NCBI GenBank assembly: GCA_014695295.1
Contig: JACJNY010000070.1
Location: forward strand, 62,001-126,000
DNA: 64,000 nucleotides
DNA from: Microcoleus sp. FACHB-61
GTDB lineage: Bacteria > Cyanobacteriota > Cyanobacteriia > Cyanobacteriales > Microcoleaceae
Reading direction: 5' to 3'
A program made the position numbers and the translations under genes. The notes under the pieces are model-generated. The model did no database searches and was not told the DNA's origin. It worked only from the letters and a program-made list of their open reading frames with translations. The number at the start of each line of letters is the position of its first letter. Position 1 is the stretch's first letter. Positions 3,321 to 26,303 of the stretch are shown piece after piece.

Positions 3321-3362
3321 CCATTTAAAGAGGAGCGGCAATAAAAATATTTTGGCGACAGC

Positions 3363-3563
3363 TTAATCTACAACTTTGAGCCAGCCCCGGCGAACGGCGT
3401 GCAGCAAGCGGTTGATGGCTGTTTGATCTTCTTCGGTAAGACTGTCATTTAACAGCGCTGTCTTGAGCTGTTGTCGGTGAGTGGGAGTCAGCAGACCGGA
3501 GTGATATACCTGAAAGACTAGCTCTGCAATCGTAAATTGAGGTAAGAATGTTTGGGTGATCAT
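3363..3563 (-). CDS. Small uncharacterised cyanobacterial protein, paralog of the 4266-4463 product
   Basis: A 66-residue product starting at the ATG at 3563 (a longer frame reaches a TTG at 3614 that aligns with nothing). It resembles the neighbouring 65-residue protein along its whole length: AELVFQVYHSGLLT against AELFYQVTHSGNLT, and INRLLHAVRRGWLKVVD against VKRLLHAIRRGWVRISD. The predicted fold is helical with a basic C-terminal helix (RRGW). There is no signal peptide. Function is unknown. The two genes lie in the same orientation, 702 bp apart, each beside a family A repeat, which suggests local duplication. Confidence 0.72.
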   Translation of the reverse strand: MITQTFLPQFTIAELVFQVYHSGLLTPTHRQQLKTALLNDSLTEEDQTAINRLLHAVRRGWLKVVD

Positions 3564-4265
3564 CTGTTTTTTTTGTTTGAACTCACTTTTGATAGTATTG
3601 ACTGATTTCCCCAATATTTATGTGATTCAACTACGCGAGTAAATGTGATCGATTGGGTGTTGATTGGTGATTTGTGTCAGCCGGACTTGGGGATCGGATG
3701 TTTCCTCGATCGCCCTGCAACTCGAAACACAAACCCCGTCCAGATTCCTCGCTTTTGGCAAGTCCCAAATCTCTACTTTTTGTTAAGAGACTGTGACAAT
3801 TAAATTAATATCTATCTATTAATAGATGACTAATGGCTGCTAGCTAAATCGCTCGGCTTAATTCAACGTAAAACTTTTACGGTGTTTAGAAACCCGCTTT
3901 TACCTACATTTACCTAGTTTCTTGGTGTGGTCTTTATTCCGTGGATATACTTAATAACGCGCCAAAAAACCGATACAAGTTTCCGACAGGAGCGGCCATC
4001 CGCCCCAAATTTTAGGCTCTTGTTCATCCTCCCAGATTCATCTGTGAAGTCAATCTAAAATCTAAAATCTAAAATCTAAAATCGACTGACTGCTTCAAAT
4101 CAAAAATCCCGGCTTCTTTAAGAAACCGGGTTCGAGCTTTTCTATCGCAGTACATTTTTTTTTGATAGGGTTAATGGAGCGACGTACTCACGAAAATCTT
4201 ATTGCTGGCAAAGCTTTACAGGAGAGAAAGTAGAAATACCGATCTCAACTTCCTGTGTGAGGGGA
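3564..4265. other. Intergenic spacer between the small paralogs
   Basis: No gene is seen in 702 bp. It holds a perfect 14-bp palindrome ATCTATTAATAGAT at 3814-3827, a family A repeat copy at 3961-4090, and a short family B fragment (AGAAACCGGGTTC) near 4117-4130. The 3' part would carry the terminator of the downstream paralog and the 5' part the promoter of the upstream paralog, but neither is clear. Confidence 0.5.
3961..4090. repeat. Interspersed repeat family A, copy 2
   Basis: It begins with AACCGATACAAGTTTCCGAC, continues with CTCCCAGATTCATCTGTGAA, then several ATCTAAA heptamers and ATCGACTGAC. This is the best-preserved short version of the family. It carries no reading frame of note. 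Confidence 0.75.
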
Positions 4266-4463
4266 CTAATCGGAAATCCTGACCCATCCGCGGCGGATGG
4301 CGTGAAGCAGGCGCTTGACTGCATCTCGGGCATCTTCGCTGAGAGCGCTTTCGCAGAGTGCGCGCAGCCCGTGGCTTTCAGTGCGAGTCAGATTGCCTGA
4401 ATGGGTTACTTGATAGAACAGTTCAGCGATCGCGCGATCGGATTTTAAAGTCAGAGCTTGCAT
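4266..4463 (-). CDS. Small uncharacterised cyanobacterial protein, paralog of the 3363-3563 product
   Basis: A 65-residue product with an ATG at 4463. The shared pattern with its paralog is (I/V)AEL-x(2)-QV-x-HSG-x-LT in the N-terminal half and RLLHA-x-RRGW in the C-terminal half. The protein is basic at its end and has no membrane segment or metal-binding cysteines. No function can be assigned. The codon pattern is ordinary, including a GCGATCGCGCGATCG stretch near 4426-4440 typical of coding DNA here. The conservation between the paralogs, despite diverged DNA, argues that both are real genes. Confidence 0.75.
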   Translation of the reverse strand: MQALTLKSDRAIAELFYQVTHSGNLTRTESHGLRALCESALSEDARDAVKRLLHAIRRGWVRISD

Positions 4464-4696
4464 GAAATCTCGTTGAACTCGACTATTGTAATATCCAACA
4501 TTTGAGAACAGAGTAGGGTGATTGCCGTCGGCTAAGTTGTGTGATCGTTTTTAGCTCGATCTGTGACCGAAGTCTACGAGTATACGTGAGTTAAATCACA
4601 GAGAACCAAAGACCTCGATCGCATAAGCTCTCATTGGGGTGGTAGCCTCAAGGTGTGACGAAAGCTCGAAAATGTCTGAGCGCAAGGCTTTGAGCC

Positions 4697-4748
4697 TCCC
4701 GAGCCTGCGATGTCGGGCGGACGCACTCCCGACATCGCAGGCTCGGGA
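4697..4748. repeat. Perfect 21-bp inverted repeat
   Basis: Arms at 4697-4717 and 4728-4748 are exact reverse complements (core CGAGCCTGCGATGTCGGG) around a 10-nt loop. It lies in the spacer between the small paralog and a small membrane protein gene. There is no T-run on either side, so a standard terminator is unlikely. It could be a mobile palindromic repeat or a stable RNA hairpin in the leader of the 4888 gene. Confidence 0.85.
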
Positions 4749-4887
4749 CTCGTAGAGCTGTGAAACTTTGGGTTTTAGACACTTGCAGCTTGCAGCCCAA
4801 GGCCTAAAGTTGCGATCGGCGAGCCACACCCTGAGATACAATATTTATAAATACTTCTATGCCATCTATAGGCAGGCAGGTAAAAAA

Positions 4888-5106
4888 ATGATAATGATTA
4901 GCTACTTTTCGATTGCCTTAATCGTTTTTCTTGTTTGGTTCAAAAGTTTTTTGAACGATACTGCGACATCTAAAAAAGACTTGATATCTTGGATAGTCTT
5001 AATAATCGGTCCTTTGGTTTGGCCTGTTGTTCTGCCCCTATCCCTTTTGCAAATTACCAGCAAAAAGTCGGTGGTCCAAACAGCTCAATGCGAGCAAGAA
5101 TTATAA
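4888..5106 (+). CDS. Small two-helix membrane protein, uncharacterised
   Basis: The likely start is the ATG at 4888 (MIMISYFSIALIVFLVWF), giving 72 residues; the upstream in-frame extension has no conserved character. Two hydrophobic segments are visible: residues 4-18 (SYFSIALIVFLVWF) and about 31-53 (LISWIVLIIGPLVWPVVLPL), separated by a charged loop with SKKD. Similar small membrane proteins with a WP(I/V)VLPLS motif are, to my recollection, common in cyanobacteria and unassigned. The RBS is weak (AGGCAGGTAAAAAA). The perfect inverted repeat at 4697-4748 lies in its upstream region. Confidence 0.65.
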   Translation: MIMISYFSIALIVFLVWFKSFLNDTATSKKDLISWIVLIIGPLVWPVVLPLSLLQITSKKSVVQTAQCEQEL

Positions 5107-6093
5107 TAAATTGTGGAAGTAACTGGCTTAAACCCAGTCGGTTATCTCGTCCTCAATTATCCGGCGTGAATCGCTCCTCGCCGCGAGTAAATCATCTTGT
5201 TTCAGTGTAAAAAAAAATGCAGCTATAAGGTAGAATCAAATAAAAATTCTGAATCCTAAAACAGTATTTTTTTACCGCTCTCAAATTCTGCCTTCTGCTT
5301 TTTGACCCCGCCCAAAAACAAATACAAGTTTCCGACAGGAGTCGCCAGCAGCCGAAAATTTTCGACTCTCGTTCAAGCTCGCAGATTCATCTGTGGAGTA
5401 AATCTCAAATCTCAAATCGTTCGACTGAGCGCGACTCCACGCTCGCAGAACATCTCACGCCGAAGTCTCAAATCGACTCAGGCCTACTTTTCTCCTGTCA
5501 CATCGTGATTTAATTGTGCCGCTCAGTCAAAAGTGTCAGAGCCAAATTGTCGGACGGCGACCGCAACATTCTTTTCTCAAAAATTATCTGCCACCTCCAC
5601 CAAGCTCAAAATTAATATGCAATGTAACACGGCCTGTTGCTAGCAAAAAGTATAACTTTAGACATATTTTCGTTTTCCGCTGACGAACATAATAATTTTT
5701 ATTCTTCCGGCCACTGCGCACCATTAATTGAATTTGGAAAAATCCTTGCTTGGCGTTGAAAAACAGCTAGGCTCCTTTCCCTGCAACCTTTTCAAGCTCA
5801 ATTTTTTCAAAGTGTAGCCGTTCTCAACAGGCAATTTTAGAGTTCGTTTGCGCCCAAATTGCCTAACTCTTACCGCAGTTAGATAGACAATTAAAGGCAG
5901 AGGCTGCAATATGAAATAGGCAACAAAAACTATTTCAAATGTCAAGTACGACTTACTTTGGGCGATCGGGCATCAGGAGTGTATAACGCGAGCAAGCGAA
6001 ATTTTTACAGGTGCTGGATGTTTGGGAACTTCTCAAAAAAAAGTGCCGTCACTGTATCCAAATTCGCTATTTGCATAAAAAGTAGGAGCCACA
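5107..6093. other. Gene-poor spacer
   Basis: No convincing gene is seen. A family A repeat copy fills 5305-5480. A minus-strand frame at 5724-5945 has a hydrophobic N-terminal stretch but only a TTG start and no recognisable relatives, so it is not called. The rest looks like decayed, AT-rich sequence. Confidence 0.45.
5305..5480. repeat. Interspersed repeat family A, copy 3
   Basis: This long version begins ACCCCGCCCAAAAAC and carries the GATTCATCTGTGGAGTAAAT block. It has an internal insertion between the heptamers and the final ATCGACT that is also present in copy 1 (GCTCGC...CTCACGCCGAAGTCT). Copies 1 and 3 are therefore a long subfamily, and copies 2 and 4 a short one. Confidence 0.75.
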
Positions 6094-6282
6094 ATGAACC
6101 AAGTGTCTGAGAAACCAATTTATAGAATTCTTAATCTAGTGTCGCTGCTAGCGCTGACCTACTATGCAGCTAGTTCCATCAATTATATTTTCGAGAGCGA
6201 CGCTCACATCTACAGGTACGACAGCCAGAGCAATTCCAATGCGTCAACAGCGCAACTACAAGCACACCATCGGAATAAATAG
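6094..6282 (+). CDS. Small membrane-anchored hypothetical protein
   Basis: A 62-residue frame with an ATG at 6094 preceded by AGGAG at a suitable distance (AGTAGGAGCCACA). One hydrophobic segment at about residues 10-29 (ILNLVSLLALTYYAASSI) is followed by a polar tail rich in S, N, Q and H. I do not recognise the family. The RBS and segment pattern favour a real gene, but it sits in a region of decayed DNA, so confidence is modest. Confidence 0.45.
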   Translation: MNQVSEKPIYRILNLVSLLALTYYAASSINYIFESDAHIYRYDSQSNSNASTAQLQAHHRNK

Positions 6283-6477
6283 TAGAGCTTTTTTATGAAT
6301 GCCGAACCAAATTTCCGAGAAATTGCTAATTGTTAATGAGCCACTAAAAGTTAATTAACAATTAGCCATAAAATATTTGCTGAAAAGTTAATGTTTTAAC
6401 TTACAGCTATTTGCCATCACATCTACAACAAAAATTCACTCTCTAATTGGCTCTAAAAATAGACCGCAGTGATGAAA

Positions 6478-7313
6478 TCAGTTCAAAGCATTTTCATCAT
6501 TATTAATAGCATTAATAGCTTTAGTAATCGCTTCATCCAGAACGTTTGAAGTTCGAGCTGCTTCAGAACGGACAATTACTTTGATTTTTGACCAACAGAA
6601 CTCGACGCGAAATAAATCCGGCGGGTAGGGAGGTAAGAATTTCACTTTAGCTCCAACAGCGTGGATCAAACTTTCGACCGCTTCGGCATGATGAATCAGT
6701 AAATTATCTATAGCTACAATTGCGAAAACCCATAACTGGGGCAGTAATATTTTCTTAAGGTAAACCAAAAAACTAGGCGTGTTTAGACCACCCGGTAAAG
6801 TCATATCGGCAATTAAACCCTCATCACTCATTGCCCCAACTAAAGTGACATTTTTTCCCGGATTTCCTGGTCGGTCATCATAGACTCGTTCTCCTCCTTT
6901 AGATGTGACCTTTAGATCTGCCATACCTTCGCACCTGCGGCTAGATTTACACCATTCTCATCGATGAATACGAGGTTTCTTACATCTAGACTATCTAGCC
7001 AAATCCTCCATTCATAGCGCAGCTTTTGAACTTTTTAAGAGAGCTGTTAACGGGCTATTAAACTTTTTTTGCGCCCTAATTTTAGTCGCTTGAGCTAGCG
7101 ACATAAACTAGATTCACTAACTTCTATGCCTGTGCGGTCTAAAAGGGAGCCTTGAAGTTCTCGCAGATCTATATTATTTTGATCCTTTACAAGTTTTTGT
7201 AATAATTGTTCGTCTTTTCCTTTAATCTTAGAACGACGATCTCCCCTTTGCGGCTTCGCTTCTATGTCTCCTGTCTCTCGATACCGACGCAGAAAATTGC
7301 GTATGAATGCCAA
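6478..7313 (-). pseudogene. Degenerate IS630-family transposase
   Basis: This is the remnant of an IS630/Tc1-like DDE transposase read on the minus strand. The N-terminal helix-turn-helix part (FIRNFLRRYRETGDIEAKPQ) is at 7095-7313. The middle catalytic strand, RNLVFIDENGVN, is readable at about 6940-7030 in another frame. The C-terminal half is at 6478-6924, with AIVAIDNLLIHHAEAVESL, FLPPYPPDL and FCWSKIK where intact copies have a DN-HH segment and YSPDLxPxE. At least two frameshifts (near 6920 and between about 7040 and 7095) and loss of the usual PIE glutamate context show it is dead. Terminal inverted repeats were not located. Confidence 0.85.
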
Positions 7314-7439
7314 GCTGACTTTAATTAGTGCTGCGCGTGGTGGTCACAGCAGCAAGTGTTCCTGAACATGAAGCTAGGAAACAGGTTCTCTCTTTCGGTC
7401 TACCAAATGGGACACAGGGTTTCACGGCTATATTTTATA

Positions 7440-7577
7440 TCGTTTCCGGTTGCATCGGCATGATACCGAGGACACGGCAGTGCCGTGTCCCTACAATTAA
7501 TGGGGGTAGGGACACGGCAGTGCCGTGTCCTGACTGTGAGTAATATTAATTCCGATGCTACCGGAGTTGATATTATC
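7440..7577. repeat. Palindromic repeat family D, copy 1 (tandem 21-bp palindromes)
   Basis: Two copies of the near-perfect palindrome GGACACGGCAGTGCCGTGTC end near 7489 and 7530, separated by about 20 bp. They are followed by GTAATATTAATTCCGATGCT-type sequence. This whole block matches, in reverse orientation, 49338-49400 beside oriC. Weaker palindromes occur at 22229-22251 and near 33760-33782. Confidence 0.75.
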
Positions 7578-7888
7578 TGGGTCGATCGAGGTGACAGCCG
7601 CCATCGGTTTCTCAAATCGGTGATGGATAGCTTGGAATGGATGATTCAGGTGGTTTTACGACCGCAACAGACCCAAGGCTTTGTTTTACTGAAAAAAGAT
7701 GGGTGGTTGAACAAACTTTTCGTTGGCTCAATGGGTATCGACGGTTGAGCAAGGATGATCGGCTCCACGATTGGGCCTATGGGGCGATTAGCCTAAGTTG
7801 GTATCCTTTACCACTTTTCATACAGCCTCTGAGGTTGGCTGTAAATTATCAAATCAATACTTCGGACAGTTTCATTGCCCACGCATAG
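7555..7888 (+). pseudogene. C-terminal remnant of an IS5-family transposase
   Basis: Reads IIWVDRGDSRHRFLKS, then QTQGFVLLKK in one frame and, after a one-base shift in the A-run near 7690-7697, RWVVEQTFRWLNGYRRLSKD in another. The RWVVE-TF-WL-RYRRLSKD signature is the classic C-terminal end of IS5-group DDE transposases, including the catalytic glutamate region. The N-terminal two thirds are missing, and the family D repeat abuts the break. It is non-functional. Confidence 0.85.
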
Positions 7889-7894
7889 GTAGCT

Positions 7895-7956
7895 AGAAAC
7901 CCGGTTTCTACGAGTTTTGCGTTTGGTAAGGAGAAATCTAGCAAAAAACCGGGTTT
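7895..7956. repeat. Interspersed repeat family B, copy 1
   Basis: It contains AGAAACCCGGTTTCTACGA at one end and AAAAAACCGGGTTT at the other, with a TTTGG-AA-GA-AAATCTA-C middle. Relatives lie at 10422-10460, 19627-19720, 38325-38430, 40171-40287, 48967-49060 and 60741-60840, always between genes. Confidence 0.75.
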
Positions 7957-8310
7957 AGCAAGGCCACAAGTCCGCAGAATTGAATTTAGGTTTTGAGTTT
8001 GTAGTCCGTGTTGTCCTGTGCAAGCAGATTGCCCTGGAACCCTTATTCTACTGTTGGCAATCAAAAACTTTCCGAAGTGATCGATCAAATCTAATTATAT
8101 AAAAACTTACGGAGGCTCGGGGCAGCGCGATCGCATATTTTTCTATTTGACACTGTGTCCCGAAGCAACAGACAATTAATACCATTTGAGATTTGAGATT
8201 TGAGATGGGGAATGATTGATGACGGGGTTTGGAGCTTACCTGCCGTTGCATTCTGTTTACAAACTGGTTATAAACTGGTACAAGATTCGCAGCAGCTTAT
8301 TCTCAGCTTT

Positions 8311-8448
8311 GACCCCGCCCAAAAACGGATACAAGTTTCCCACAGGAGTCGCCAGCAGCCCAAAGTTTTAGATCCTAGTTCCAGCTCCCAGATTCATCTG
8401 TGGAGTAAATCTAAAATCTAAAATTTAAAATTTAAAATCGACTGACAG
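8311..8448. repeat. Interspersed repeat family A, copy 4
   Basis: It runs from GACCCCGCCCAAAAACGGAT through CTCCCAGATTCATCTGTGGA and a run of ATCTAAA/ATTTAAA heptamers to ATCGACTGACAGTA. It belongs to the short subfamily together with copy 2. Confidence 0.75.
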
Positions 8449-9408
8449 TACCGTCAAAACTCTACCGGCCCACCGTTCATCCCAACTTAACAACACAAGC
8501 GCTGCATTGTCAGATTGTCGGGACGGATACGGCTCATGGTTGAAATGACCGATTTTGGTTGATAAACCGGGTTGTTTAGCCAAAATCCTGCGTTGAGTGC
8601 GAGGGATTTCGGTGGAAAAATTAAGGTGATGAGCCTCAAGAGTCCGTGGGGGAAAGTGTTGGGACTCACTTTGGATTGAAGGCGGCCTCCAGCGTGCGCG
8701 GGCTTGCTTTGAAAGCCTGCGAAAAAATTTTGATTTCTGGGGAACTATTGGCGAAAATCAAAAGTCAGGTCAATTACAGTGTACTTAAAAGTCGCAACTC
8801 AGTTCCAGCCCCATTGCCGGCGCTCGAACTTCCAGGCGATCGACAGTGCCAAGAGTCCGGTGCGATTTGTCAGTCTGGATAGCATACTCCGATTAAAAAT
8901 GGTTTATGTGTATTTCCTGGCTATTGTGTTAAATAATGACTAGCCACATCGAAGCTCGGTATGGTACACTCACAAACGTTTAGCTGAAATATTTTGGTCT
9001 TAGAGGAGGCAGGGAGTAGTGGAGTCGAAAGTCCAAAGCAGGAAACAACCGATATTTGCTGCTCAAGGAATACAGGATTCAACTTGCGATCCCGACCTCC
9101 TTACGGACAATTTAAATTACATGACAACTTATGGCAGCCGGGTCAATTAGGGTCTCAACCAATGTCCGGTTTCATTGGCTAAAAGCTTCAAAAAAAATAG
9201 TTGTACTCATTTGAAAAATAGGGTGCTGCTCCACCCAAATTTACGCCTGTGGACAAGTAGGAGCCGACTCCCTTGGTAGAAGCAGGAAGCAGACCGTCTA
9301 GAAACTACTTCTAGTTGAATGGTGGAGCTTAGATAAGCTTAGCCCGGTTTTGTATAGCAGAGAAAAGTGTATTGTAGAAAAGTGATTCATCCTTTAGGAG
9401 GAGTGTAA

Positions 9409-10272
9409 ATGACACAGGTAACTAACCCAACACAACCAGCAAGTTCACAACCTGGAGCTGGCGGTGGCTCAAACATTATCGGCATCCAACCCGAAAACAG
9501 GTTGAACGGCACCCCCGGCAACGATATCATCTTGACTTTTGGGGGCAATGATGTCGTCGCCGGTGGCTCTGGCAACGACCTGATTTTATCGGGCGGCGGC
9601 AATGACAGTGTCGGCGGCGGCGACGGCAACGATAGCATCATTTCAGGCAGCGGCAACGATGTGGTCGCTGGCGCCACCGGCGATGATTTAATTTTTGGCG
9701 GTAAAGGGAATGACCTCGTAGACGGCGGTGATGGCAATGACGTGGTTTCTGGCGACAGAGGCAACGACACCGTACTCGGCGGAGCTGGGAGCGATACAGT
9801 CTTTGGTGGCCAAGGTAGTGATATTGTCGACGGCGGCGACGGCAACGACAGCCTGTTCGGCGGTAAAGAAAACGATACTGTCAATGGCGGTTCGGGCAAT
9901 GACTTTATCTCTGGCGACAGAGGAAGTGATGTGCTCACGGGCGGTGCTGGCAGCGATACGTTCTTCTTCGCGAGTGCTGGTGGTGGCGATTTTGGCGTAG
10001 ACACGATCACTGACTTTGCCCCAGGCGAAGATAAGATCCGCTTGAGGCCGGGCGGTGTGTTCTCTGCTTTGGGCAGCGGCAACTTGGATGCCAGCGAGTT
10101 TGTCGTCGTTTCTGGTTTCAACGCAGCCAACGCAGGAGCAACCGGGACGAACAAGTTGGTCTACGACCCAACAAGCGGTACGTTGTTCTTCAACGGCACC
10201 AACGGAGTGCTAACTGTGGCTCAGTTGCAGCCTGGCCTGACAATTACCTCGAACAACTTCGAGTTGTTCTAA
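9409..10272 (+). CDS. RTX (hemolysin-type calcium-binding repeat) protein
   Basis: A 287-residue acidic, glycine-rich protein. From about residue 33 to 190 it consists of nonapeptide GGxGxDxhx repeats (for example GGNDVVAGGSGND, GGDGNDVVSGDRGND), which bind Ca2+ and fold as a beta roll. The C-terminal region DTITDFAPGEDKIRL is the conserved module that follows RTX blocks, and the last residues (NNFELF) resemble type I secretion signals. It is therefore likely secreted by an ABC exporter; no exporter is in the window and there is no Sec signal. A strong AGGAGG at 9396-9401 precedes the ATG. No enzyme domain is present, so a surface or matrix role is inferred. It lies upstream of the glycan operon, but 545 bp away. 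Confidence 0.92.
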   Translation: MTQVTNPTQPASSQPGAGGGSNIIGIQPENRLNGTPGNDIILTFGGNDVVAGGSGNDLILSGGGNDSVGGGDGNDSIISGSGNDVVAGATGDDLIFGGKGNDLVDGGDGNDVVSGDRGNDTVLGGAGSDTVFGGQGSDIVDGGDGNDSLFGGKENDTVNGGSGNDFISGDRGSDVLTGGAGSDTFFFASAGGGDFGVDTITDFAPGEDKIRLRPGGVFSALGSGNLDASEFVVVSGFNAANAGATGTNKLVYDPTSGTLFFNGTNGVLTVAQLQPGLTITSNNFELF

Positions 10273-10817: not shown

Positions 10818-13637
10818 ATGAACACTCAAGAATATATCCGGCAAGCCCAAGTTTATTTGAACAGCGGGAAGTTAACTGAGGCGATCGATTTTTGTAAAAG
10901 GGCGATCGAACTTCAACCATTTTCGCCCTCTGCTTACACCACTTTAGGCGAAATCCTCGAAGCTCAAGGCGATCCGACGGCGGCAAGAGACGCTTTTGTG
11001 CAAGCTTTGGAGATTTCGCCGCAGTTTTTTCGGGCTCATGCTTATTTGGGTCAACTTTACAGCGACTATTGCTGGCTGGATGAGGCGGTTTTTCACTACC
11101 GGCAAGCTCTGGATTTGAAACCAGACTGGCCGGAAGTTCATTATAACTTGGGAAATGTTTTTCACAAGCAGGGTAATTTGTTGGGGGCGATCGACTGTTA
11201 CCGAAAGGCGATCGCTCTTAACCCCAATTATCTACTTGCTTTCTACAATCTGGCTGTGGTTTTAGATGAAAATAATCAGCTCGAAGCGGCAATTGATACC
11301 TACCGACAGGTGATTGCTCTGAAGCCGGATTACGTGGAAGCTTACAGCAATTTGGGTGCGATGCTGCTGAAGGACGATCGCGCTGCTGAGGCGATCGACC
11401 TTTACCAACGGGCGATCGAGATTAAGCCAGATTGGGCGACGCTGCACAATAATTTGGGTCAAGCGTTGCTCAACAAACATCCCGATCGGGCGATCGCATC
11501 TTACCTCACAGCTATTGAGTTGCAGCCGGACATGGTTTTGGCTCACTACAATCTGGGGAAAGCGTGGCAAATACAGGGAGAACATTCGGCGGCGGTTGCT
11601 TGTTTCGATCGCGCGATCGAACTCGATCCCGAACATATTTCGGGCTATACAGACGCCGGGTTTTCTCTGATGGTTGTGGGTCAAGTTGCGGAAGCCATGC
11701 CTTATTTTAAGCGGGCGATCGCTCTGAAACCTGATTTTGTTGAGGCTTACTGCCGTTTGGGAGAGAGGCGCAGAGTTGCTGCTGTAGAAGATGATGAATT
11801 GTCAAGGGCGATCGCTGCGTGCGATCGATTTCTCACAGCATTGATGGGAAGTTCGGCAACGGATGTCACCGATGTCACTGATATCACGGATGTCACTGAT
11901 TTAAGGGATTTAAAAGTAAATAAAAAAGATGGTGCGGCTAGATATTTGTCCAGCGCAGAGCGCGAATTGCCTGTTGCTGAAATCTGCGATAATTTAGCCG
12001 AAATTTACTTGCATTTGGGAAATGCTTTAACAGAGTACGGCGGACACGAATCTGCCGCCGCTTATTATCAAAAAGCATTGCAAATTCAGCCACAAAATGC
12101 AGAGATTTACTGGCGGGTGGGAAATTCCTTAGCCCAGCAACACCGGATAATTGCAGCAATTGCAGTTTACCGCATGGCTTTGACGATTCAACCTGCTTTA
12201 CCGCAGGTTTATTTTGAGTTGGCTAAACTGCTGGAAAAACAGGGGCACTGGGAACGGGCGATCGATTATTATCAAAAGGTTTTAGAGTTGCAACTGCACG
12301 GGTATGGGGAGCAGAAAGAGTGGAAAAAACAGAGTTTTATCTCGCCAGAGCGCAATTCTATAGAACCTCCTCACGGTATTTATTTATCGATTTGGGATTG
12401 GCTGCTTAATGCTAAGTTGGATGCGGGCAATTATGTGGAAATAGTTTGGAAATCTGCACCAGAAGCTTGTGCCAAAAATATTCATAATTCCAAATTTGCG
12501 CTCACAAATTCGCAAGTGGGAAATGCCGATTGTACAGGTTTAACTTGCGGGCTGTGTTTGCAGAGGCTTTCTAAGTGGTTCGATCCGGTGCATTTGGGTT
12601 GGGGAGTTTGCCGTTTGTCCAACTTGCAACCGCTACCTGTGGAGTCGCCAAAGACTTTTGTGGCACAGATTCCCAACGGGCGAGCTTGGATTGTTCCGCA
12701 AGAAAATTATTGGATGGTTTGCAAGGCGATCGCTGTAATTACTCCTGACAATTATTTGTTGGCTGATGTGTCGAGAGATTATCCGGGGTTTTTGCCGGGA
12801 TGCGAAAAGCATGATGTTAGAAAACACAGCGTTTTTCAGTTAGAATCCTTTCCAGATTTAAAGCAAATTGACGGTAGCGTGGCGGTGCTTTCGGGTTTGT
12901 CGGGAAATGTCTATTTTCACTGGATGGTTGATGTTTTGCCTAGAATAGAATTGCTGCGGCTCAGCGGTAGGGATTTGGCGGAAATTGATTGGTTTTTGGT
13001 GAATAGTTGTCAGCACCAATTCCAGCGGGAAAGTCTAAGAGTTTTGGGCATTCCCGAAGAGAAAGTCTTGGAGAGCGATCGGTTGCCTCATATTCAAGCA
13101 ACAGAGTTAATTGTGCCGTCTTTTGCGGGATATTTGGGCTGGCCTCCTGGGTGGGCGATGGATTTTTTGAGGCGCGAGTTTCTCAAGGGAATTATACCTA
13201 GTTCGAGCTATCCCAAACGCATTTATATCAGCCGCAGCAAAGCGAGATATCGCAGAGTTTTAAACGAGGAAGATGTGGTTGACGTTTTGGAGCAATTTGG
13301 CTTTGTTTCTATTTGGCCTGAGTCGATGTCTTTGGCAGAGCAAATTGCTCATTTTTACCACGCTGAGGTGATAGTTGCTGCCCACGGCAGCGGCTTGACA
13401 AATACGATTTTTTGTCGCCAAGGAACTAAAGTAATTGAGTTGGTGTCACCTCACTATATCAGCCATTATTACTGGGGAAGCAGTCAATATTTGCAGTTGG
13501 AACATTACTTTTTAGCGGGCGAGGCTTTTGAATGCTATCCTGTTAGACAGTTGATGTATCAGAATTCGCTGACTGAGGATATTTTGGTGAACTTGAGTTC
13601 GCTGAAAAGGATGGTTGAAGTGGTGCGTTTGGGTTAG
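10818..13637 (+). CDS. TPR protein with C-terminal family 61 glycosyltransferase (DUF563)
   Basis: A 939-residue fusion. Residues 1-310 hold about eight tetratricopeptide repeats (for example AIDCYRKAIALNPNYLLAFY), and a second TPR block lies at about 395-490. The C-terminal third is a GT61/DUF563 domain: FHWMVDVLPRIELL near 700, YISRSKARYRRVLNEEDV near 810 and AAHGSGLTNTIFC near 855, the usual signature. The predicted role is sugar transfer onto a glycan or protein, with the TPR arm as acceptor or partner platform. It has no signal peptide. A 9-bp repeat block at 11848-11908 is inserted in frame between the TPR blocks and encodes a TDVTDVTDITDVTD stretch. It is first of three co-directional TPR-enzyme genes and ends 24 bp before the next start. 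Confidence 0.92.
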   Translation: MNTQEYIRQAQVYLNSGKLTEAIDFCKRAIELQPFSPSAYTTLGEILEAQGDPTAARDAFVQALEISPQFFRAHAYLGQLYSDYCWLDEAVFHYRQALDLKPDWPEVHYNLGNVFHKQGNLLGAIDCYRKAIALNPNYLLAFYNLAVVLDENNQLEAAIDTYRQVIALKPDYVEAYSNLGAMLLKDDRAAEAIDLYQRAIEIKPDWATLHNNLGQALLNKHPDRAIASYLTAIELQPDMVLAHYNLGKAWQIQGEHSAAVACFDRAIELDPEHISGYTDAGFSLMVVGQVAEAMPYFKRAIALKPDFVEAYCRLGERRRVAAVEDDELSRAIAACDRFLTALMGSSATDVTDVTDITDVTDLRDLKVNKKDGAARYLSSAERELPVAEICDNLAEIYLHLGNALTEYGGHESAAAYYQKALQIQPQNAEIYWRVGNSLAQQHRIIAAIAVYRMALTIQPALPQVYFELAKLLEKQGHWERAIDYYQKVLELQLHGYGEQKEWKKQSFISPERNSIEPPHGIYLSIWDWLLNAKLDAGNYVEIVWKSAPEACAKNIHNSKFALTNSQVGNADCTGLTCGLCLQRLSKWFDPVHLGWGVCRLSNLQPLPVESPKTFVAQIPNGRAWIVPQENYWMVCKAIAVITPDNYLLADVSRDYPGFLPGCEKHDVRKHSVFQLESFPDLKQIDGSVAVLSGLSGNVYFHWMVDVLPRIELLRLSGRDLAEIDWFLVNSCQHQFQRESLRVLGIPEEKVLESDRLPHIQATELIVPSFAGYLGWPPGWAMDFLRREFLKGIIPSSSYPKRIYISRSKARYRRVLNEEDVVDVLEQFGFVSIWPESMSLAEQIAHFYHAEVIVAAHGSGLTNTIFCRQGTKVIELVSPHYISHYYWGSSQYLQLEHYFLAGEAFECYPVRQLMYQNSLTEDILVNLSSLKRMVEVVRLG
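11848..11908 (+). repeat. 9-bp tandem repeat (family E) inserted in frame inside the TPR-GT61 gene
   Basis: GGAAGTTCGGCAACGGATGT is followed by four GAT-GTC-AC(C/T/G)-type 9-mers. The same leader and 9-mers occur, non-coding, in the spacers at 33843-34110 and 60520-60565. Here the unit length of nine keeps the frame open and adds roughly 20 residues of TDV repeats between two TPR blocks. Confidence 0.85.
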
Positions 13638-13661
13638 TTGGCGTCTGGAGTAAGTTTAATT

Positions 13662-16600
13662 ATGCCCTCGATTGAGAAGATGGAAAAAGCAGCGGTTGAT
13701 TTGAATCGGCAAGCAGAAGTTTATTTAGCCGAAGGAAAGTTGAATGAGGCAGTTGCTGCTTGCGAGTTAGCCTTGAAAATTGAACCGAATTTGTCTACAG
13801 CTTGCCAGACGCTGGGAAAGGTGATGCAGGTTCGAGGTGAAATCGAGCAAGCTAAGCATTGGTATGAAACGGCGCTCGATCATAATCCAAATTTGCCGGA
13901 AGTTTACGCTAATCTCGGCAGTTTGTATTCTCAAGAAAAACAGTGGGAAAAGGCGATCGCCAATTGTGAAAAAGCGATTTCGCTAGCGCCGAATTTTGCT
14001 GCTGTTTACCGACAGTTGGCGAGAATTTGGACGCAGTTAGAGAAGCGAGAAGAGGCGGCAGAGTGTTGGTATCAAGCTTTTAATATCGAACCGAATTGGG
14101 CAACTGCTGACGAGCACGTTACTCTGGGAAATAGTTTAGTTGAATTGGGAAAGTTCGATCGCGCTATTGAGTGTTATTCGCGGGCAGTTGGGTTAAACCC
14201 GAAGCTGGCAACAGCTTATCACAATTTGGGGGAAATGCTGGTTGGTCAGAAGCGGTGGGATGAGGCGATCGCCAATTACCGACAAGCCATTGCCATCAAT
14301 CCAAATTCGTTTGAATCTTACCACAGTTTGGGTAAAACTTGGGCGGAGCGAGGAGAATTCGATCGGGCGATCGCCTGTTACAACAAAAGCCTCGAAATCA
14401 ATCCCAACTACGCTCGTGCTTACGTGGGTTTAGGTAATGTTTTCGCGCAAAAGCAGGACTTTGATGCAGCCATTAAATGTTACCGTCAGACTCTGGAAAT
14501 TAATGATAATTCCTACTGGGCATACAATTGCTTAGGGGACGCTTTGGCTCAAAAACAACTGTGGCCCGAAGCTATTAGTTGCTACCGCAAAGCTATTGAA
14601 ATAAATCCAAATATTCCTTGGTTTTATGTCAATTTGGGAATTGCCTTCACCTGCGAAAAATCCTGGGATGAAGCTGTGGCTGCTTTCCTGCACGCGGTTC
14701 AGATTGAGCCGAATTTGACGGGAATCAATCAGAGGTTGGGATATGTTTTGCGGAAGCGCAGCGAATCGGGTTTAGACAGCACAAGCGAAACTTATTGTCA
14801 AGCTATTGAGGTACTTGCAAGCGGGAAAATTTACCACAGCTTGCTGGGAATTGAGTTAGATGGAGCGGAGTTTTATATAAATTTAGGCAACAGTTTAGCG
14901 AAACAGAAGCAGTTGGAAGGTGCGATCGTATTTTATAGCATGGCACTGCAAATTGAACCCAATGCTGCGGAAGTTGTCGCTCAACTGGATAATGTGCGGG
15001 CGAAACAACAGGAGTTATACGCACAAATTGCCGCTTACCGCCACCAAATTGAACTCGATCCGAGCAATTCTAAGCCTTACAACGACTTAGGAAATATTTT
15101 ACCCCAATTAGGCGAATTAGAAGAAGCAATTATTTGCCACCAAAAAGCAAGCGAATTGAGGGGTTGGCCTGAGTGTGCGGCGAAAGATTATCAATTTACC
15201 CAAGATTGGTTTACCCACAATATTCCTATTTGGCAACGGCATTTGCAGGAATTTACCGGAATTGCGGATTTTCAAGTTGTGGAAATCGGCAGTTTTCAAG
15301 GAATGTCGGCTTGCTGGCTGCTGGATAATATTTTAACTCATCCGACGGCAAAGATTACTTGTATTGATTTATATTTTCAACAACATTTTAAGGGCAATAT
15401 TGTTAAAACTGGAGCAGCCGATCGGGTAATTGAATTAGAAGGTTACTCTCAAGATTTGTTAGTGAATTTGACTTCGGAATATTACGAGGTTGCTTACATT
15501 GACGGGTGTCACAAACCCACCAGTGCTCTGCAAGATGCGATTTTATCTTGGAGGTTGGTGAAAGTTGGGGGACTGATGATTTTTGACGATTACGAGTTTA
15601 CGTTTCCCGACAGCCCGGAGCAAGATACTAAAATTGGGATAGATGTTTTTTTGGAGATGTTTGGAAGTCAGTTAGAAGTAGTACACAAAGGCTATCAACT
15701 GATTGTTAAAAAAATCGGCAATCAAAGTTTGGGCGAAGAGCAAACTCTGTTGTCTCTGGGTTGGGAAAAGTTGGGGGATATTGCGGCGAATTCCGGTTAT
15801 TTGGATGAGGCGAACGCCCGCTATCAAACAGCTATTAAAATTAAATCGGGCAACTACTTAACTTACCACAAGTTGGGTAAAAGTTTGCAAGCAAAAGAAA
15901 TGTTTTATGAAGCTCGGGCCGCTTACCAACGGGCGATCGAACTAAACCCTACTTTTAGTTGGGCTTACCACTTTTTGGGGGAAACTTTGCAGGCGATTGA
16001 GGAACAGGGCGAAGCCGCTGCTGCTTACCGCAAAGCTATTGAGTTAAATCCCCATTTTTGTTGGACTTACAACAATTTAGGCGATGTGCTGATGGAGCTT
16101 TCTGAGTGGGAGGAAGCTGCTGTTGCTTACCACAAGTTAGTTGAACTAAATCCCGATTTTTGTTGGTCTTACGATAGATTAGGTAAGGCTTTGATTGCAC
16201 TGGAACATTGGGAAGACGCGGCGGCGGCTTACCGCAAAGCTATTGAATTAAATTCCGATGATTGTTGGCTGTACAATAGTTTGGGAGAAGTTCTGGAATC
16301 ACAAGAAAATTGGCCCGAAGCAGCAGCGGCTTTTGGTCGTGCTATTGAGCTAGAACCTGAGCATAGTTGGCTGTACAAAAAGTTGGGCGATGCACTGCGG
16401 AATCAAGGGGAATTGGAAAGGGCGATCGCCATTTATGAAAAAGGTATCAATCTCGATCCAAAATCCTGTTGGTGTTACGAAGGATTGGGTTTGAGTTTAA
16501 TTGCCAAACAGCAGTGGGAACCTGCAATCACTAATTTAGTTCAAGCACTGCAAATTCAACCCGATTTGTTTGAAGCTTACGATAATATAGGTTATGCTCT

Positions 16601-17753
16601 GGAACAACAAGGAGAAGTCGATGAGAGCGATCGGGGAGAATACAGCAATCAAATCTTACCCTTAAGTATTCTCAAAAAATACTGTGGGTTTACAGAAGAT
16701 TTGACCGTTCCAGCAGAATCGAATCCGCACCTCACCTGCATTGACATCCATCCTGCGAGTCAAATCAATTTATCAGATTCCAAAACAATCGACAGCAGCC
16801 CCAGATTTTGGGAGCATCAAAGTCATTCCAGAAAAGCTTTTGTTGCCGTATTGCCAAACGGACGAGCTTGGGCAGATGTTGTGACTACCGCCGTGATTAC
16901 TTCAGACAATAAACTTGTTACTGATATTTCAATGGGTTGTGCTGAATTGGTAATCACTTCCGACAAATTGCCTCCCGCTGAACACGTTGATGGAAATGTG
17001 GCTTTTTTATCGGCTCGCTGGGGTGGAGCTGCTTATTTTCATTGGATGTTTGATGTGATTACGCGATTTGACCTTTTGCAGCGGAGCGGATTGATAGAAA
17101 CTATAGATAAGTTTGTTGTCAATGCCTCGGATTCTTCCTATCAAGCAGAAACTTTACATACTTTAGGAATTCCTCAAGATAAACTTTTAGAAAGTCGCTG
17201 CAATTTACACATTACAGCCGATAAATTAATAGTTCCGTCAATATCTTATAACGGCTCGGGGGCGGTTTCTAAATGGAAGTGTGAATATCTCAAACAGACA
17301 TTTTTAAATGAACAACAGCCCCTAAATACAGACTATTCAGAGCGAATTTATATCACCCGCCAACAAGCATCATATCGGCGAATCGTCAACGATGAAGAGG
17401 TAATTAAATACTTAGAAAAATTGGGGTTTCGCAGTGTCAAGCTGGAAACGATGTCGATAGCGGAACAAGCATCGTGTTTGGCTGCTGCTAAAGTAGTTGT
17501 CGCACCCCACGGAGGGGGGTTGACAAATCTAGTTTTTTGCAGTCCGGGAACTAAGGTAATTGAGATTTTTTCTCCCCTTTACGTTCCCTATTGTTATTGG
17601 ATGATTAGCAATTTGTGCAGTTTGGAACATTACTATTTAATTGGTGATTTGGTTGATGATGAAACTCAGACAAAACCTTTACATAAAAATATGCGGTTGG
17701 ATGTGAACTCGCTGGAAAAATTACTGACTATTGCAGGAGTTTTCCATGTATAA
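13662..17753 (+). CDS. TPR protein with internal methyltransferase and C-terminal family 61 glycosyltransferase
   Basis: About 1363 residues from the ATG at 13662; the frame is open to a TTG at 13638, but the ATG follows GGAG. TPRs fill about residues 5-500. A class I SAM-dependent methyltransferase of the Methyltransf_24 type follows: VVEIGSFQGMSACWLL near 537, ITCIDLYF, VAYIDGCHKPTSAL and GGLMIFDDYEF up to about 650. A second TPR block spans about 695-990. The GT61 domain is last: YFHWMFDVITRFDLL near 1122, YITRQQASYRRIVNDEEV and VAPHGGGLTNLVF. It is a paralog of the upstream gene with a methyltransferase inserted. The predicted role is methylation and glycosyl transfer on one glycan. Its stop overlaps the next start. 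Confidence 0.92.
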   Translation: MPSIEKMEKAAVDLNRQAEVYLAEGKLNEAVAACELALKIEPNLSTACQTLGKVMQVRGEIEQAKHWYETALDHNPNLPEVYANLGSLYSQEKQWEKAIANCEKAISLAPNFAAVYRQLARIWTQLEKREEAAECWYQAFNIEPNWATADEHVTLGNSLVELGKFDRAIECYSRAVGLNPKLATAYHNLGEMLVGQKRWDEAIANYRQAIAINPNSFESYHSLGKTWAERGEFDRAIACYNKSLEINPNYARAYVGLGNVFAQKQDFDAAIKCYRQTLEINDNSYWAYNCLGDALAQKQLWPEAISCYRKAIEINPNIPWFYVNLGIAFTCEKSWDEAVAAFLHAVQIEPNLTGINQRLGYVLRKRSESGLDSTSETYCQAIEVLASGKIYHSLLGIELDGAEFYINLGNSLAKQKQLEGAIVFYSMALQIEPNAAEVVAQLDNVRAKQQELYAQIAAYRHQIELDPSNSKPYNDLGNILPQLGELEEAIICHQKASELRGWPECAAKDYQFTQDWFTHNIPIWQRHLQEFTGIADFQVVEIGSFQGMSACWLLDNILTHPTAKITCIDLYFQQHFKGNIVKTGAADRVIELEGYSQDLLVNLTSEYYEVAYIDGCHKPTSALQDAILSWRLVKVGGLMIFDDYEFTFPDSPEQDTKIGIDVFLEMFGSQLEVVHKGYQLIVKKIGNQSLGEEQTLLSLGWEKLGDIAANSGYLDEANARYQTAIKIKSGNYLTYHKLGKSLQAKEMFYEARAAYQRAIELNPTFSWAYHFLGETLQAIEEQGEAAAAYRKAIELNPHFCWTYNNLGDVLMELSEWEEAAVAYHKLVELNPDFCWSYDRLGKALIALEHWEDAAAAYRKAIELNSDDCWLYNSLGEVLESQENWPEAAAAFGRAIELEPEHSWLYKKLGDALRNQGELERAIAIYEKGINLDPKSCWCYEGLGLSLIAKQQWEPAITNLVQALQIQPDLFEAYDNIGYALEQQGEVDESDRGEYSNQILPLSILKKYCGFTEDLTVPAESNPHLTCIDIHPASQINLSDSKTIDSSPRFWEHQSHSRKAFVAVLPNGRAWADVVTTAVITSDNKLVTDISMGCAELVITSDKLPPAEHVDGNVAFLSARWGGAAYFHWMFDVITRFDLLQRSGLIETIDKFVVNASDSSYQAETLHTLGIPQDKLLESRCNLHITADKLIVPSISYNGSGAVSKWKCEYLKQTFLNEQQPLNTDYSERIYITRQQASYRRIVNDEEVIKYLEKLGFRSVKLETMSIAEQASCLAAAKVVVAPHGGGLTNLVFCSPGTKVIEIFSPLYVPYCYWMISNLCSLEHYYLIGDLVDDETQTKPLHKNMRLDVNSLEKLLTIAGVFHV

Positions 17754-19605
17754 TGACTACCACTATTTGGGTAATTCCCTGCAAGAAAGCGGTCGGTTTG
17801 ATGAGGCTGTTGCTGCTTACAAAAAAGCTATTGAATTAACTCCTGATTTTTCTTGGTCTTATCACAGTTTGGGCGATGTTTTGCTGAAACTTGGAAAATG
17901 GGAGGAAGCTGTTGCTGCTTACAAAAAAGCTGTTGAGTTAAATCCTGATTTTTCCTGGTCTTATCACAATTTGGGCGATGCTTTGCTGAAACTTCAGCAA
18001 TGGGAAGAGGCTGCTGCTGCTTACCGCTGCGAGATTGCACTCAACTCGGATTTTGCTTGGTCTTTTTGCAATTTAGGCGACGCTTTAACTAAACTCAAAC
18101 AGTGGGATGAAGCTATCGCCGCGTATTTAAAAGCTGTTGAAATTGACGCAAATTTGCCGGGAATTTACGAGAAGTTGGGATACGCTCTCGGACAAACAGA
18201 ATCTGATTTAAACTTAGTGTTAGAACAATCTCAATTGCAAATTACACCGGAAAATTGGGAGTTTTATTTGCAGTTAGGAGATAATTTAGCCAAGTACGAT
18301 CGCCCAAAAAGCGCAATTATTTTTTACAAAATGCTATTGACAACTATGCCGGATTGTGCCGAGCTGTCAGCAGGATTAGAGGAGTTGTTGCAGCAGCAAG
18401 AAAAGTGCGTTAGCGAAGCCCTCGAAGAGGATCGCGCATTAGCCTCATCTCGCGCAACTGTCGCCCAAAAACCAGATGATTGCTGGTCTTATTACAATTT
18501 AGGTGCTGTTCTGAGCCACCAAAAATATTGGGAGGAAGCGGCTGCGGCATTTTTCCAAGCAATAGAAATAAATCCAGATCTTCCTTGGTGGTTTTATTAC
18601 AATTTGTGGGAAGTTTTTGTTAGGCAAAACAAGCTAGATGAAGTTGAGAACTTGTGCCGCGAAGTTGTTGCAGCTAAACCGGAGGCTTTTTGGCCTTATC
18701 TGAATTTGGGGGAAGCTTTGACGAGGCAAGGTAAAATTGCAGAGGCGATTGATTTTTATCGAACTGTCAGTTTAAAAGAAAGTTTGGCATCTCTTATCAG
18801 TAAGAGAACAGGCAAGATGCCTGTTCTACAAGAAGATACAGGCATCTTGCCTGTTCTACAAAGTTGGAACTTAAAACCAGTCAAAGTTCCTAACTTTATA
18901 ATTATTGGTTCTCAGCGGTGCGGGACGACTTCTCTGTATACTTATTTAGCTCAACACCCGCAAATTTTGACTCCGATTAAAAAGGAGATGGATTTTTTCT
19001 CGTGGCACTTTGACAGAGGGATTGATTGGTATTTGGCTCATTTTCCGCCAATGCCGCAGGGAGAGCAATTTTTGACGGGCGAAGCAAGTCCGAGCTATTT
19101 TGACTGTCGGGAAGCACCGGAACGGCTCTACACCGCGTTTCCAGAGGCTAAACTGATTGTACTGTTGCGAAATCCGGTCGATCGGGCGATTTCTCAATTT
19201 TACCGCTTGACTGCCTTAAATTGGGAAGCGCGATCGCTCGATCGAGCAATTAGCGATGAAGTTGAACGGTTGAATCAAAATCCCGAATACATCATCGGCG
19301 AGGAACCAGGAAATTATTTAGCTCGCGGTAGGTACATAGAATTTATAAAAAACTGGCGGAATTTCTTTCCCCAAGAACAGTTGTTAATTTTGAAAAGCGA
19401 AGATTTTTATGCGGGTGCAGCGGGGACTGTCAAGCAGGTTTTAGAATTTTTAGATTTGCCGGAATATCAATTGTCTGAATACCAGAATGCTAATCCCGGT
19501 TCTTACCAGCCGGTCAATCAATCGGTTCGCGATTGGTTGAGGAATTATTTTCAACCTTACAATCAGCAGCTAGAGGAGTATTTAAGCACAAATTTTAATT
19601 GGTAA
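17746..19605 (+). CDS. TPR protein with C-terminal PAPS-dependent sulfotransferase
   Basis: About 619 residues. The start is the ATG at 17746 inside ATGTATAA, overlapping the upstream stop by 8 bp, which indicates translational coupling. TPRs span residues 1-350. The C-terminal domain (about 380-619) is a sulfotransferase: the 5'-phosphosulfate loop IIGSQRCGTTSLYTYL near 385, the 3'-phosphate motif LRNPVDRAISQFYRL, and ARGRYIEFIKNW. Such domains move sulfate from PAPS to sugar hydroxyls. Together with the two GT61 fusions upstream this suggests a sulfated glycan. A repeat pair at 18806-18862 is inserted in frame just before the enzyme domain and encodes GKMPVLQEDTGILPVLQ, so the TPR-enzyme linker is partly mobile-repeat derived. 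Confidence 0.93.
   Translation: MYNDYHYLGNSLQESGRFDEAVAAYKKAIELTPDFSWSYHSLGDVLLKLGKWEEAVAAYKKAVELNPDFSWSYHNLGDALLKLQQWEEAAAAYRCEIALNSDFAWSFCNLGDALTKLKQWDEAIAAYLKAVEIDANLPGIYEKLGYALGQTESDLNLVLEQSQLQITPENWEFYLQLGDNLAKYDRPKSAIIFYKMLLTTMPDCAELSAGLEELLQQQEKCVSEALEEDRALASSRATVAQKPDDCWSYYNLGAVLSHQKYWEEAAAAFFQAIEINPDLPWWFYYNLWEVFVRQNKLDEVENLCREVVAAKPEAFWPYLNLGEALTRQGKIAEAIDFYRTVSLKESLASLISKRTGKMPVLQEDTGILPVLQSWNLKPVKVPNFIIIGSQRCGTTSLYTYLAQHPQILTPIKKEMDFFSWHFDRGIDWYLAHFPPMPQGEQFLTGEASPSYFDCREAPERLYTAFPEAKLIVLLRNPVDRAISQFYRLTALNWEARSLDRAISDEVERLNQNPEYIIGEEPGNYLARGRYIEFIKNWRNFFPQEQLLILKSEDFYAGAAGTVKQVLEFLDLPEYQLSEYQNANPGSYQPVNQSVRDWLRNYFQPYNQQLEEYLSTNFNW
18806..18862 (+). repeat. Family C repeat core (two copies) inserted in frame inside the sulfotransferase gene
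   Basis: Two tandem units, AACAGGCAAGATGCCTGTTC-TACAA and TACAGGCATCTTGCCTGTTC-TACAA, match the hairpin core of the MITE-like family C (1453-1472 and 58070-58090). In this gene they are read as GKMPVLQ and GILPVLQ. The element's terminal repeats are absent. The frame is kept and no stop is introduced. Confidence 0.85.
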
Positions 19606-25403: not shown

Positions 25404-26138
25404 CTAGCTCAATTCAGTAGAAAGGCTACGCTTCAGCCATGTTTTGGTTGTTCTTGCTGCACCTGCCAATTGCCAGACCCCAGGTACACGGTCAAACCAG
25501 GCATTAGGATAGATGTCACTACGGGAACTCCTTTGCCACCCCAGGTTTGGAGAAGCAATCAAGGTGACAACATCGGGATTTTGAGATCGGAAAGTAGAAT
25601 AAGCTCCGTCGATGTGCATCGGGCCGCCGTCGGGATGTCCCGGAGGTCGCTGTTGCACTTCTTCCAGAAAGCGCAGGAGGCGATCGAAAATCCTGCCATT
25701 TACAGCGTAAAAATGAGTGGTCATCACGCCCTCAGAAAAGGGCACGAGGGCGACAGGAGACTTTTTTTCAACCTCTTCGACGTGTCCGAAGTAGACGAAA
25801 TCCCACTCTTGCTGACACAGTTGTTCGACGATAAGAGCTTGGTGTGTTCTGAACTTTGGTGAAATTTCTAGGTCGTCTTCTACAATCAGGATATTGCTCA
25901 ACCCCTGCTGTTTTGCCTGCTGGAGGATAGCTACATGACTGGAAAAGCATCCCCTCGCCCCAATGCTGGGGAAACCTCCAGCTTCGTCGGGGCGGATTGC
26001 CGGAAATATCTCAACCTTATGGGGCGTGAGGGGCATTCCTGCTTCTTCTAATTCCTTGACTATGAGCTGGCGTCGATCTTTCCTCTCAGGCAGATTTACC
26101 GCATAAACTCCCTGGAAATAGTCTGTGATTTTCGTCAT
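25404..26138 (-). CDS. Family 25 glycosyltransferase
   Basis: About 244 residues from the ATG at 26138 (MTKITDYFQGVYAVNLPERK); another ATG lies at 26153. GT25 enzymes transfer galactose or glucose onto lipooligosaccharide or other glycans. The family marks are YAVNLPERKDRR at the N terminus, GARGCFSSHVAILQ near residue 60, and the metal-binding ILIVEDDLEISP near residue 83. MHIDGAYSTFRSQNPDVVTL fits the acceptor region. It has no membrane segment. The gene faces the CsgG-like pseudogene and lies downstream of the PP2C gene on the same strand, with a 165-bp gap. Confidence 0.88.
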   Translation of the reverse strand: MTKITDYFQGVYAVNLPERKDRRQLIVKELEEAGMPLTPHKVEIFPAIRPDEAGGFPSIGARGCFSSHVAILQQAKQQGLSNILIVEDDLEISPKFRTHQALIVEQLCQQEWDFVYFGHVEEVEKKSPVALVPFSEGVMTTHFYAVNGRIFDRLLRFLEEVQQRPPGHPDGGPMHIDGAYSTFRSQNPDVVTLIASPNLGWQRSSRSDIYPNAWFDRVPGVWQLAGAARTTKTWLKRSLSTELS

Positions 26139-26303
26139 AGTTCGATCTCGCATCAAGAAGTTGATAAATCTTCGGCTCGCTGGACTCCGGTTTCAATTGA
26201 AGTCTGTGTCTGCCTTAAATCCCTCTATCTTTAGCAAGATGTATCTTCCTTTTTCTCAAACTTACTCAAATCCCCTCGGCACAATCTAGCAGTGAGAGTT
26301 TAA

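Follow-up and report, generated by a model that had tools for sequence, protein, structure and literature searches.

The 64,000-nucleotide stretch of Microcoleus sp. FACHB-61 analysed here (contig JACJNY010000070.1, positions 62,001 to 126,000; hereafter the window) contains, on its plus strand, a gene for an RTX (repeats-in-toxin) calcium-binding protein followed by three genes, A, B, and C, in which arrays of tetratricopeptide repeats (TPR) are fused to glycan-modifying domains. A carries a glycosyltransferase of family 61 (GT61), B a methyltransferase and a second GT61 domain, and C a sulfotransferase. The conserved unit is the RTX gene together with A, B, and C. Its core is the pair of the RTX gene and an A-type GT61 gene, which recurs within one GT61 clade across several families. 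A first-pass annotation of the DNA had singled out the three enzyme genes and proposed a shared sheath or exopolysaccharide product; the RTX gene, their constant partner, had been overlooked. It does seem that the enzymes work towards one product, and the context points to the RTX protein over a sheath polysaccharide. The recurrence of versions of the grouping in other cyanobacteria suggests that the enzymes decorate the RTX protein before its export.

Linkage of RTX genes to A-type GT61 genes

GT61 proteins were assigned to the A-type or B-type class according to which of the two GT61 domains of the window they resemble more, and regular expressions for the nonapeptides served to recognise RTX genes. 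A locus was counted for linkage if its flanks reached 2 kb or more upstream and 1.5 kb or more downstream, and one copy was kept per set of identical frames. The A-type loci in Microcoleaceae come from the matches listed, with many weaker places left out, and those outside the family comprise all 59 places listed by a gene-order search, taken by matches to A alone (loci and genomes carry L and G numbers below). The A-type gene has an adjoining RTX gene in every ortholog of the window locus (20/20), in 33 of 49 other A-type genes of Microcoleaceae among the matches listed, and in 27 of 37 outside the family. The last count becomes 28 with L184, where tblastn revealed, between A and the methyltransferase gene, an RTX gene that the regular expressions had missed.

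Loci without an A-type gene served as the control, since in trio loci the gene preceding B or C would mask any RTX gene. No RTX gene was found near any of 16 B-type GT61, 14 other GT61, or 40 TPR-sulfotransferase genes in this set, nor within 6 kb upstream of the 13, 12, and 31 genes of the same three kinds counted at that distance. Where an A-type gene is present, the counts are 0/23 for B-type, 0/1 for other GT61, and 3/48 for sulfotransferase frames; the three exceptions (L183, L186, and L187) are loci in which the RTX gene sits between A and the methyltransferase gene. A tree of 124 GT61 domains has a branch, supported at 97, that sets apart the 25 B-type rows. On this tree, the A/B split requires a single change, and the RTX label requires 6 changes against a mean of 35.1 for shuffled labels. 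The tree was built from an earlier locus set, with orthologs of at least 85% identity thinned to 7 at random and L184 labelled RTX-less. As near copies cluster, the RTX-label result shows no more than inheritance of the linkage within the clade.

Conservation of the enzyme trio was followed in two ways. A scan with B as the query gave 29 loci (L005-L033), mostly from Microcoleus, Tychonema, and Oscillatoriales, a B ortholog being present in 28 (62-94% identity over the best segment). The presence of B at these loci, including its methyltransferase domain in 24 of 24 orthologs, follows from the choice of query; that of the RTX gene, A, and C does not, and their order is kept wherever the contig reaches, except in L018. 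When the domains of A and C were searched separately in 61 Microcoleaceae genomes, an A ortholog (at least 72% identity) was present in 30. The C ortholog lies about 6 kb from A on the same contig in 25 of these and on a different contig in four, and is missing in one, which bears out the co-conservation of the trio expected by the first-pass annotation. Its proposal that the enzymes act together also gains from loci outside the family: among 30 A-type genes with at least 6 kb downstream, the distance used for all methyltransferase and sulfotransferase counts, 14 are accompanied by a TPR-methyltransferase, 15 by a TPR-sulfotransferase, and 14 by both. The RTX protein, TPR-GT61, TPR-methyltransferase, and TPR-sulfotransferase are encoded, in this order, by separate genes in the typical loci L190, L193, L195, L196, L198, L200, L202, L203, and L206. 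Within the family, L114, L115, and L116 carry a TPR-methyltransferase and a B-type TPR-GT61 as separate genes beside TPR-sulfotransferases. Because its halves thus occur as separate neighbouring genes elsewhere, B seems to have arisen by fusion of a TPR-methyltransferase gene with a gene for a second TPR-GT61. The methyltransferase and sulfotransferase vary among the A-type loci of the family, where the neighbours scanned include TPR-GT2 and TPR-GT1 proteins, and for this reason the RTX gene and the A-type gene are taken as the core, with varying tailoring enzymes.

Architecture of the RTX protein and the three enzymes

The domain composition described by the first-pass annotation is confirmed by profile matches above the curated Pfam cut-offs for all four domain types (Table 1). 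TPR families give many matches in each of A, B, and C. The GT61 domains of A and B score 108 and 104.5 bits, respectively, against a PF04577 cut-off of 27, and are about 40% identical to one another. The Methyltransf_24 domain of B (69.4 bits against a cut-off of 26.3) sits between two TPR blocks. The frame of B opens with a TTG codon directly after the stop of A, and ATG codons at 13662 and 13680 are alternative starts. In C, the open frame extends to a TTG at 17731 (624 aa), but the ATG fits better, being preceded by GCAGGAG; the reported overlap of B and C holds with this start. The sulfotransferase domain of C matches heparan sulfate 3-O-sulfotransferase (4.1e-22). Its GSQRCGTTSLY and LRNPVDRAIS stretches, which we take to be the 5' and 3' binding stretches for 3'-phosphoadenosine 5'-phosphosulfate, align with PDB entry 3rnl and with heparan 3-O-sulfotransferases.

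Table 1. Features of the RTX-GT61-sulfotransferase cassette (window coordinates)
Feature	Position	Strand	Length or profile match
RTX calcium-binding protein, proposed substrate	9409..10272	+	287 aa; PF00353 2.7e-46; AGGAGG before ATG
Gene A: TPR superhelix + GT61	10818..13637	+	939 aa
Glyco_transf_61 domain of A (A-type clade)	12912..13436	+	PF04577 6e-31, residues 699-873
Gene B: TPR - Methyltransf_24 - TPR - GT61	13638..17753	+	1371 aa as TTG frame
Methyltransf_24 domain of B	15279..15593	+	PF13578 5.5e-19, residues 548-652
Glyco_transf_61 domain of B (B-type clade)	17034..17561	+	PF04577 6.8e-30, residues 1133-1308
Gene C: TPR + sulfotransferase	17746..19605	+	619 aa from ATG; 8-bp overlap with B (17746-17753)
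Sulfotransferase domain of C	18892..19473	+	PF00685 (Sulfotransfer_1) 8.6e-17; PF13469 (Sulfotransfer_3) 1.4e-18

The first-pass annotation had likened the TPR-fused enzymes to O-GlcNAc transferase (OGT), and the likeness is borne out in part. The predicted TPR superhelix of A finds its best structural match in the TPR domain of OGT, with consensus TPR proteins scoring nearly as well, and the search speaks for residues 1-495 only; beyond residue 500, the model is poor (blocks of pLDDT 21 to 72). The C-terminal domain of A belongs to GT61 and not to GT41 (among the best 25 of 33 Pfam families for A). When residues 561-939 were compared with PDB sequences, the closest solved proteins were POMGNT2 (E 0.0098) and EOGT (E 0.018), both weak matches, and no OGT chain was found at E values up to 1. 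The models of the GT61 and sulfotransferase domains are poor and rest on shallow alignments (14 and 13 rows), so a fold claim for these two parts was set aside. A series of conserved asparagines about 34 residues apart in the TPR arrays (in A, N110, N144, N178, N212, and N245), which resembles the asparagine ladder of OGT, was not used as evidence because asparagine is common at that TPR position.

Some A-type proteins with an RTX gene upstream are giants of about 1730-2360 aa (L128, L136, L153, L154, L159, L162, L163, L169, and L170). In the C-terminal parts of those from L128, L136, and L163, the best 25 families matched are TPR-like, which places the GT61 domain between two TPR arrays.

The RTX protein of the window begins with MTQVTNPTQP, ends with NNFELF, and contains GGxGxDxx nonapeptide repeats in eight PF00353 stretches. 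The RTX proteins linked to A-type genes share a nonapeptide-repeat middle and are 174-604 aa long (with uncertainty about some start codons, and with one frame truncated where its contig ends). A C-terminal [FW][ED][ILVTF][FILMVS] motif, typically within NNFELF or DDFEII, is present in 72 of 79. Window orthologs start with MTQxxNPTxP, and NPTxP occurs in 14 of 58 other A-linked starts (e.g., MSQITNPTQP and MSLIENPTTP). At the DNA level, the NPTxP pattern was found in 9 of 386 genomes of the phylum, eight of them in Microcoleaceae; the ninth hit (G352) is not an RTX gene. Fourteen other RTX frames, found in 20 regions of the window's own genome, have neither the C-terminal motif nor an NPTxP start, and these regions contain no GT61, methyltransferase, or sulfotransferase frame. 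By their sequences, the A-linked RTX proteins look like a distinct subset, and their C-terminal tail could act as a signal for secretion, as a site for docking to TPR arrays, or in both ways. NPTxP as a universal docking signal was rejected, as it is present in the 20 window orthologs but in only the stated fraction of the others. At L207 and L210-L213, the RTX gene and gene A would overlap by about 20 nt if A starts at the first ATG of its frame, which falls within the RTX gene near its end.

Two successive RTX genes with differing N-terminal linkers precede A in L015, L019, L024, and L031. In L136, the RTX frame upstream of the A-type gene (5324-7237) encodes 638 aa, near oscillin in size (646 aa; PMC3034196).

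A candidate protein-decorating line and its alternatives

The explanation that we hold, with some reserve, to be the probable one is a TPR-guided line in the cytoplasm that adds a glycan and methyl and sulfate groups to the RTX protein ahead of its type I secretion. The RTX gene would supply a small calcium-binding protein destined for a type I exporter. The TPR superhelix of A would hold the unfolded RTX chain before export, perhaps by a conserved tail, while its GT61 domain places a sugar on the chain in the cytoplasm. B would then extend and methylate the glycan and C would sulfate it, each reaching this substrate through a TPR arm of its own, and the product would be a surface or slime protein carrying short, methylated, sulfated glycans. 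The RTX protein as acceptor, the cytoplasmic site, the order of the steps, the export route, and the surface role are what we infer here; the gene order, the domains, and the RTX linkage are observed directly. In favour of this explanation are the RTX linkage with its zero controls, the tree, the shared C-terminal motif, the recurrence of the four functions as separate neighbouring genes in other families, the first ATG of A inside the RTX gene at L207 and L210-L213, the precedents of FlmG and oscillin, and, weakly, the POMGNT2 and EOGT matches.

Several observations weigh against this reading. Among other A-type genes of the family with enough sequence downstream, a methyltransferase accompanies 0 of 26 and a sulfotransferase 2 of 26 (among the matches listed). 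The Tychonema sp. BBK16 genome (G195; locus L018/L123) has no C gene in the interval from B to the peroxiredoxin gene. An RTX neighbour is lacking at 16 of the 49 other family A-type genes, 13 of which form one clade and three of which are L258, L264, and L270, and at 9 of the 37 outside the family, where the weakest relatives (L214, L216, L239, L240, L243, and L244, 46-49% identical) are RTX-less. The NPTxP start is found in just 34 of 78 RTX starts, 20 of these from window orthologs. RTX repeats are common in the 6.6-Mb genome of the window (177 matches). A gene for a type I exporter was not recognised next to the cassette; the best HlyB-like match in the genome (715.8 bits, just below the cut-off of 725.55) lies elsewhere on the same contig. 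Finally, the solved relatives of C include heparan sulfotransferases, which act on a polysaccharide.

This last resemblance also favours the main alternative, which we regard as rather unlikely. In it, glycosylation of proteins plays no part: the enzymes produce or complete a slime or sheath exopolysaccharide with sulfate and methyl groups, and the RTX product, expressed along with them, binds this polymer as a calcium-dependent protein of the matrix. B-type GT61 and TPR-sulfotransferase genes do occur at RTX-free loci, some of which have a GDP-mannose dehydratase gene and multi-domain GT2 proteins, and GT2 accounts for 6 of 20 flanking proteins scanned. Synechan, a sulfated exopolysaccharide of cyanobacteria, is made by a pathway of the kind that combines sulfotransferases and glycosyltransferases, as the cassette does. 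Clusters of this type are expected to contain polymerase and export genes; the 20 flanking proteins, taken from several loci, include no priming transferase, polymerase, flippase, or export protein of that kind, and one generic ABC exporter lies near L120. Sulfated exopolysaccharides have been reported from mats containing cyanobacteria, according to the cited passage (PMC9723792). The RTX gene, however, tracks the A-type clade alone and is absent near all B-type and sulfotransferase genes of the control loci, and, with no such polymer genes recognised among the 20 flanking proteins, this leaves the sheath or exopolysaccharide product unsupported in the form originally proposed.

That the target of the TPR-GT61 protein is lipopolysaccharide or a different surface protein, with the RTX gene linked for co-regulation only, seems improbable to us. 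The clade of 13 A-type loci retains TPR-GT61 without an RTX neighbour, as such a role would allow, but the RTX linkage persists in distant families and in diverged paralogs. Two genomes of that clade (G424 and G427) each have another A-type gene with an RTX neighbour (L175 and L174, respectively). We give very little credence to a chance neighbourhood or to shared ancestry of one chromosomal region without a functional link. Most orthologous loci with enough flank also share the downstream genes for peroxiredoxin, SbtA, and GAPDH, so that part of the synteny is plain inheritance, and the frequency of RTX repeats in the genome makes an accidental neighbour easier to obtain. Outside the family, however, the other neighbours differ while the RTX gene and the A-type gene stay together, and the controls are zero. 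From about 48 distinct RTX frames among the matches listed for the window's genome, rough arithmetic puts the chance of an RTX gene in such an interval below 1%.

Extended to its full scope, the decoration of the RTX protein could represent a previously undescribed bacterial line in which a substrate, a first-sugar transferase, a methyltransferase, and a sulfotransferase are encoded together, each enzyme having its own OGT-like TPR arm to grip one and the same unfolded RTX chain, and from which a sulfated, methylated, calcium-binding glycoprotein is exported; we offer this only tentatively. Equally speculative is the idea that the product is a counterpart of sulfated proteoglycans serving in gliding or slime, with the RTX tails (NPTxP at the N-terminus of some members of the family, the FE[IL][FI]-like end at the C-terminus of most) as possible docking or attachment sites. 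Literature searches by title or abstract found no paper on an RTX-GT61-sulfotransferase cassette.

Known systems and the surrounding window

Enzymes that combine TPR arrays with glycosyltransferase domains are known from O-GlcNAc transferase and SPINDLY (GT41), which resemble A in outline and differ from it in their catalytic domain. POMGNT2 and EOGT, to which the GT61 domain of A is weakly similar in sequence, are eukaryotic GT61 enzymes of protein O-glycans, and they belong to the secretory pathway and lack such TPR arrays. Another parallel in organization is FlmG of Caulobacter crescentus, a flagellin O-glycosyltransferase with TPR and GT-B parts, whose TPR part, in the cited account, binds flagellins for modification in the cytoplasm (PMC7591256). 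Like A, FlmG joins an N-terminal TPR part to a C-terminal glycosyltransferase, and its exported filament protein is modified in the cytoplasm, as proposed here for the RTX protein. It differs, in a comparison by description only, in that the present system has a GT61 domain, a methyltransferase and a sulfotransferase with their own TPR arms, and a putative RTX substrate.

Since the 1990s, glycosylated RTX surface proteins have been linked to motility in cyanobacteria; the cited passages on oscillin and SwmA name no glycosylating enzymes (PMC3034196). According to the same source, oscillin from Phormidium uncinatum is a highly glycosylated surface protein of 646 aa with 46 repeats, and SwmA from Synechococcus is a 130-kDa RTX surface protein that appears to be glycosylated. 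Both are larger than the 287-aa RTX protein of the window, again as compared by description only. In Phormidium sp. KS, no oscillin homolog above 34% identity was reported in the portion of the work cited (PMC4284469). As the cassette places candidate enzymes beside a candidate substrate, it makes the glycosylation of RTX proteins directly testable. If the proposal is true, GT61 chemistry, methylation, and sulfation would be added to bacterial cytoplasmic protein glycosylation, and the enzymes might be used for building sulfated glycoproteins in laboratory strains. The Tychonema sp. BBK16 locus provides a natural test case for an unsulfated product: in L018 (3081-8090) and L123, A and B are kept, with about 120 bp between the end of B and the peroxiredoxin frame.

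TPR-sulfotransferases are also found in clusters of two to four genes, most with TPR-GT61 or TPR-only frames (L105-L113 and L119); no RTX frame was detected in the regions of these loci that were examined.

Elsewhere in the window, about 6.4 kb (3025-9400) contains no open reading frame of at least 120 aa apart from one frame antisense to the RTX gene and a 148-aa frame at 6478-6924 on the minus strand, which is transposase-like by impression only. Arrays of AATCTAA-type heptamers occur at 4052-4083 and 8407-8439. No Rfam match and no tRNA was found in the window, and a scan for promoters and terminators, on which nothing is built, gave counts of 9 (shuffled sequences: 5.0, sd 2.3) and 8 (shuffled sequences: 5.1, sd 2.5). 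About 6 kb downstream of C, a glycosyltransferase family 25 protein (PF01755, 6.9e-11) is encoded on the minus strand at 25404-26156, and a gene of this family also lies downstream of GAPDH in L011, L014, L017, and L023. Near the end of the window, positions 60971-63769 encode a 932-aa histidine kinase with an ethylene-receptor-like ETR1_N domain at its N-terminus (1.6e-40) and several PAS domains.

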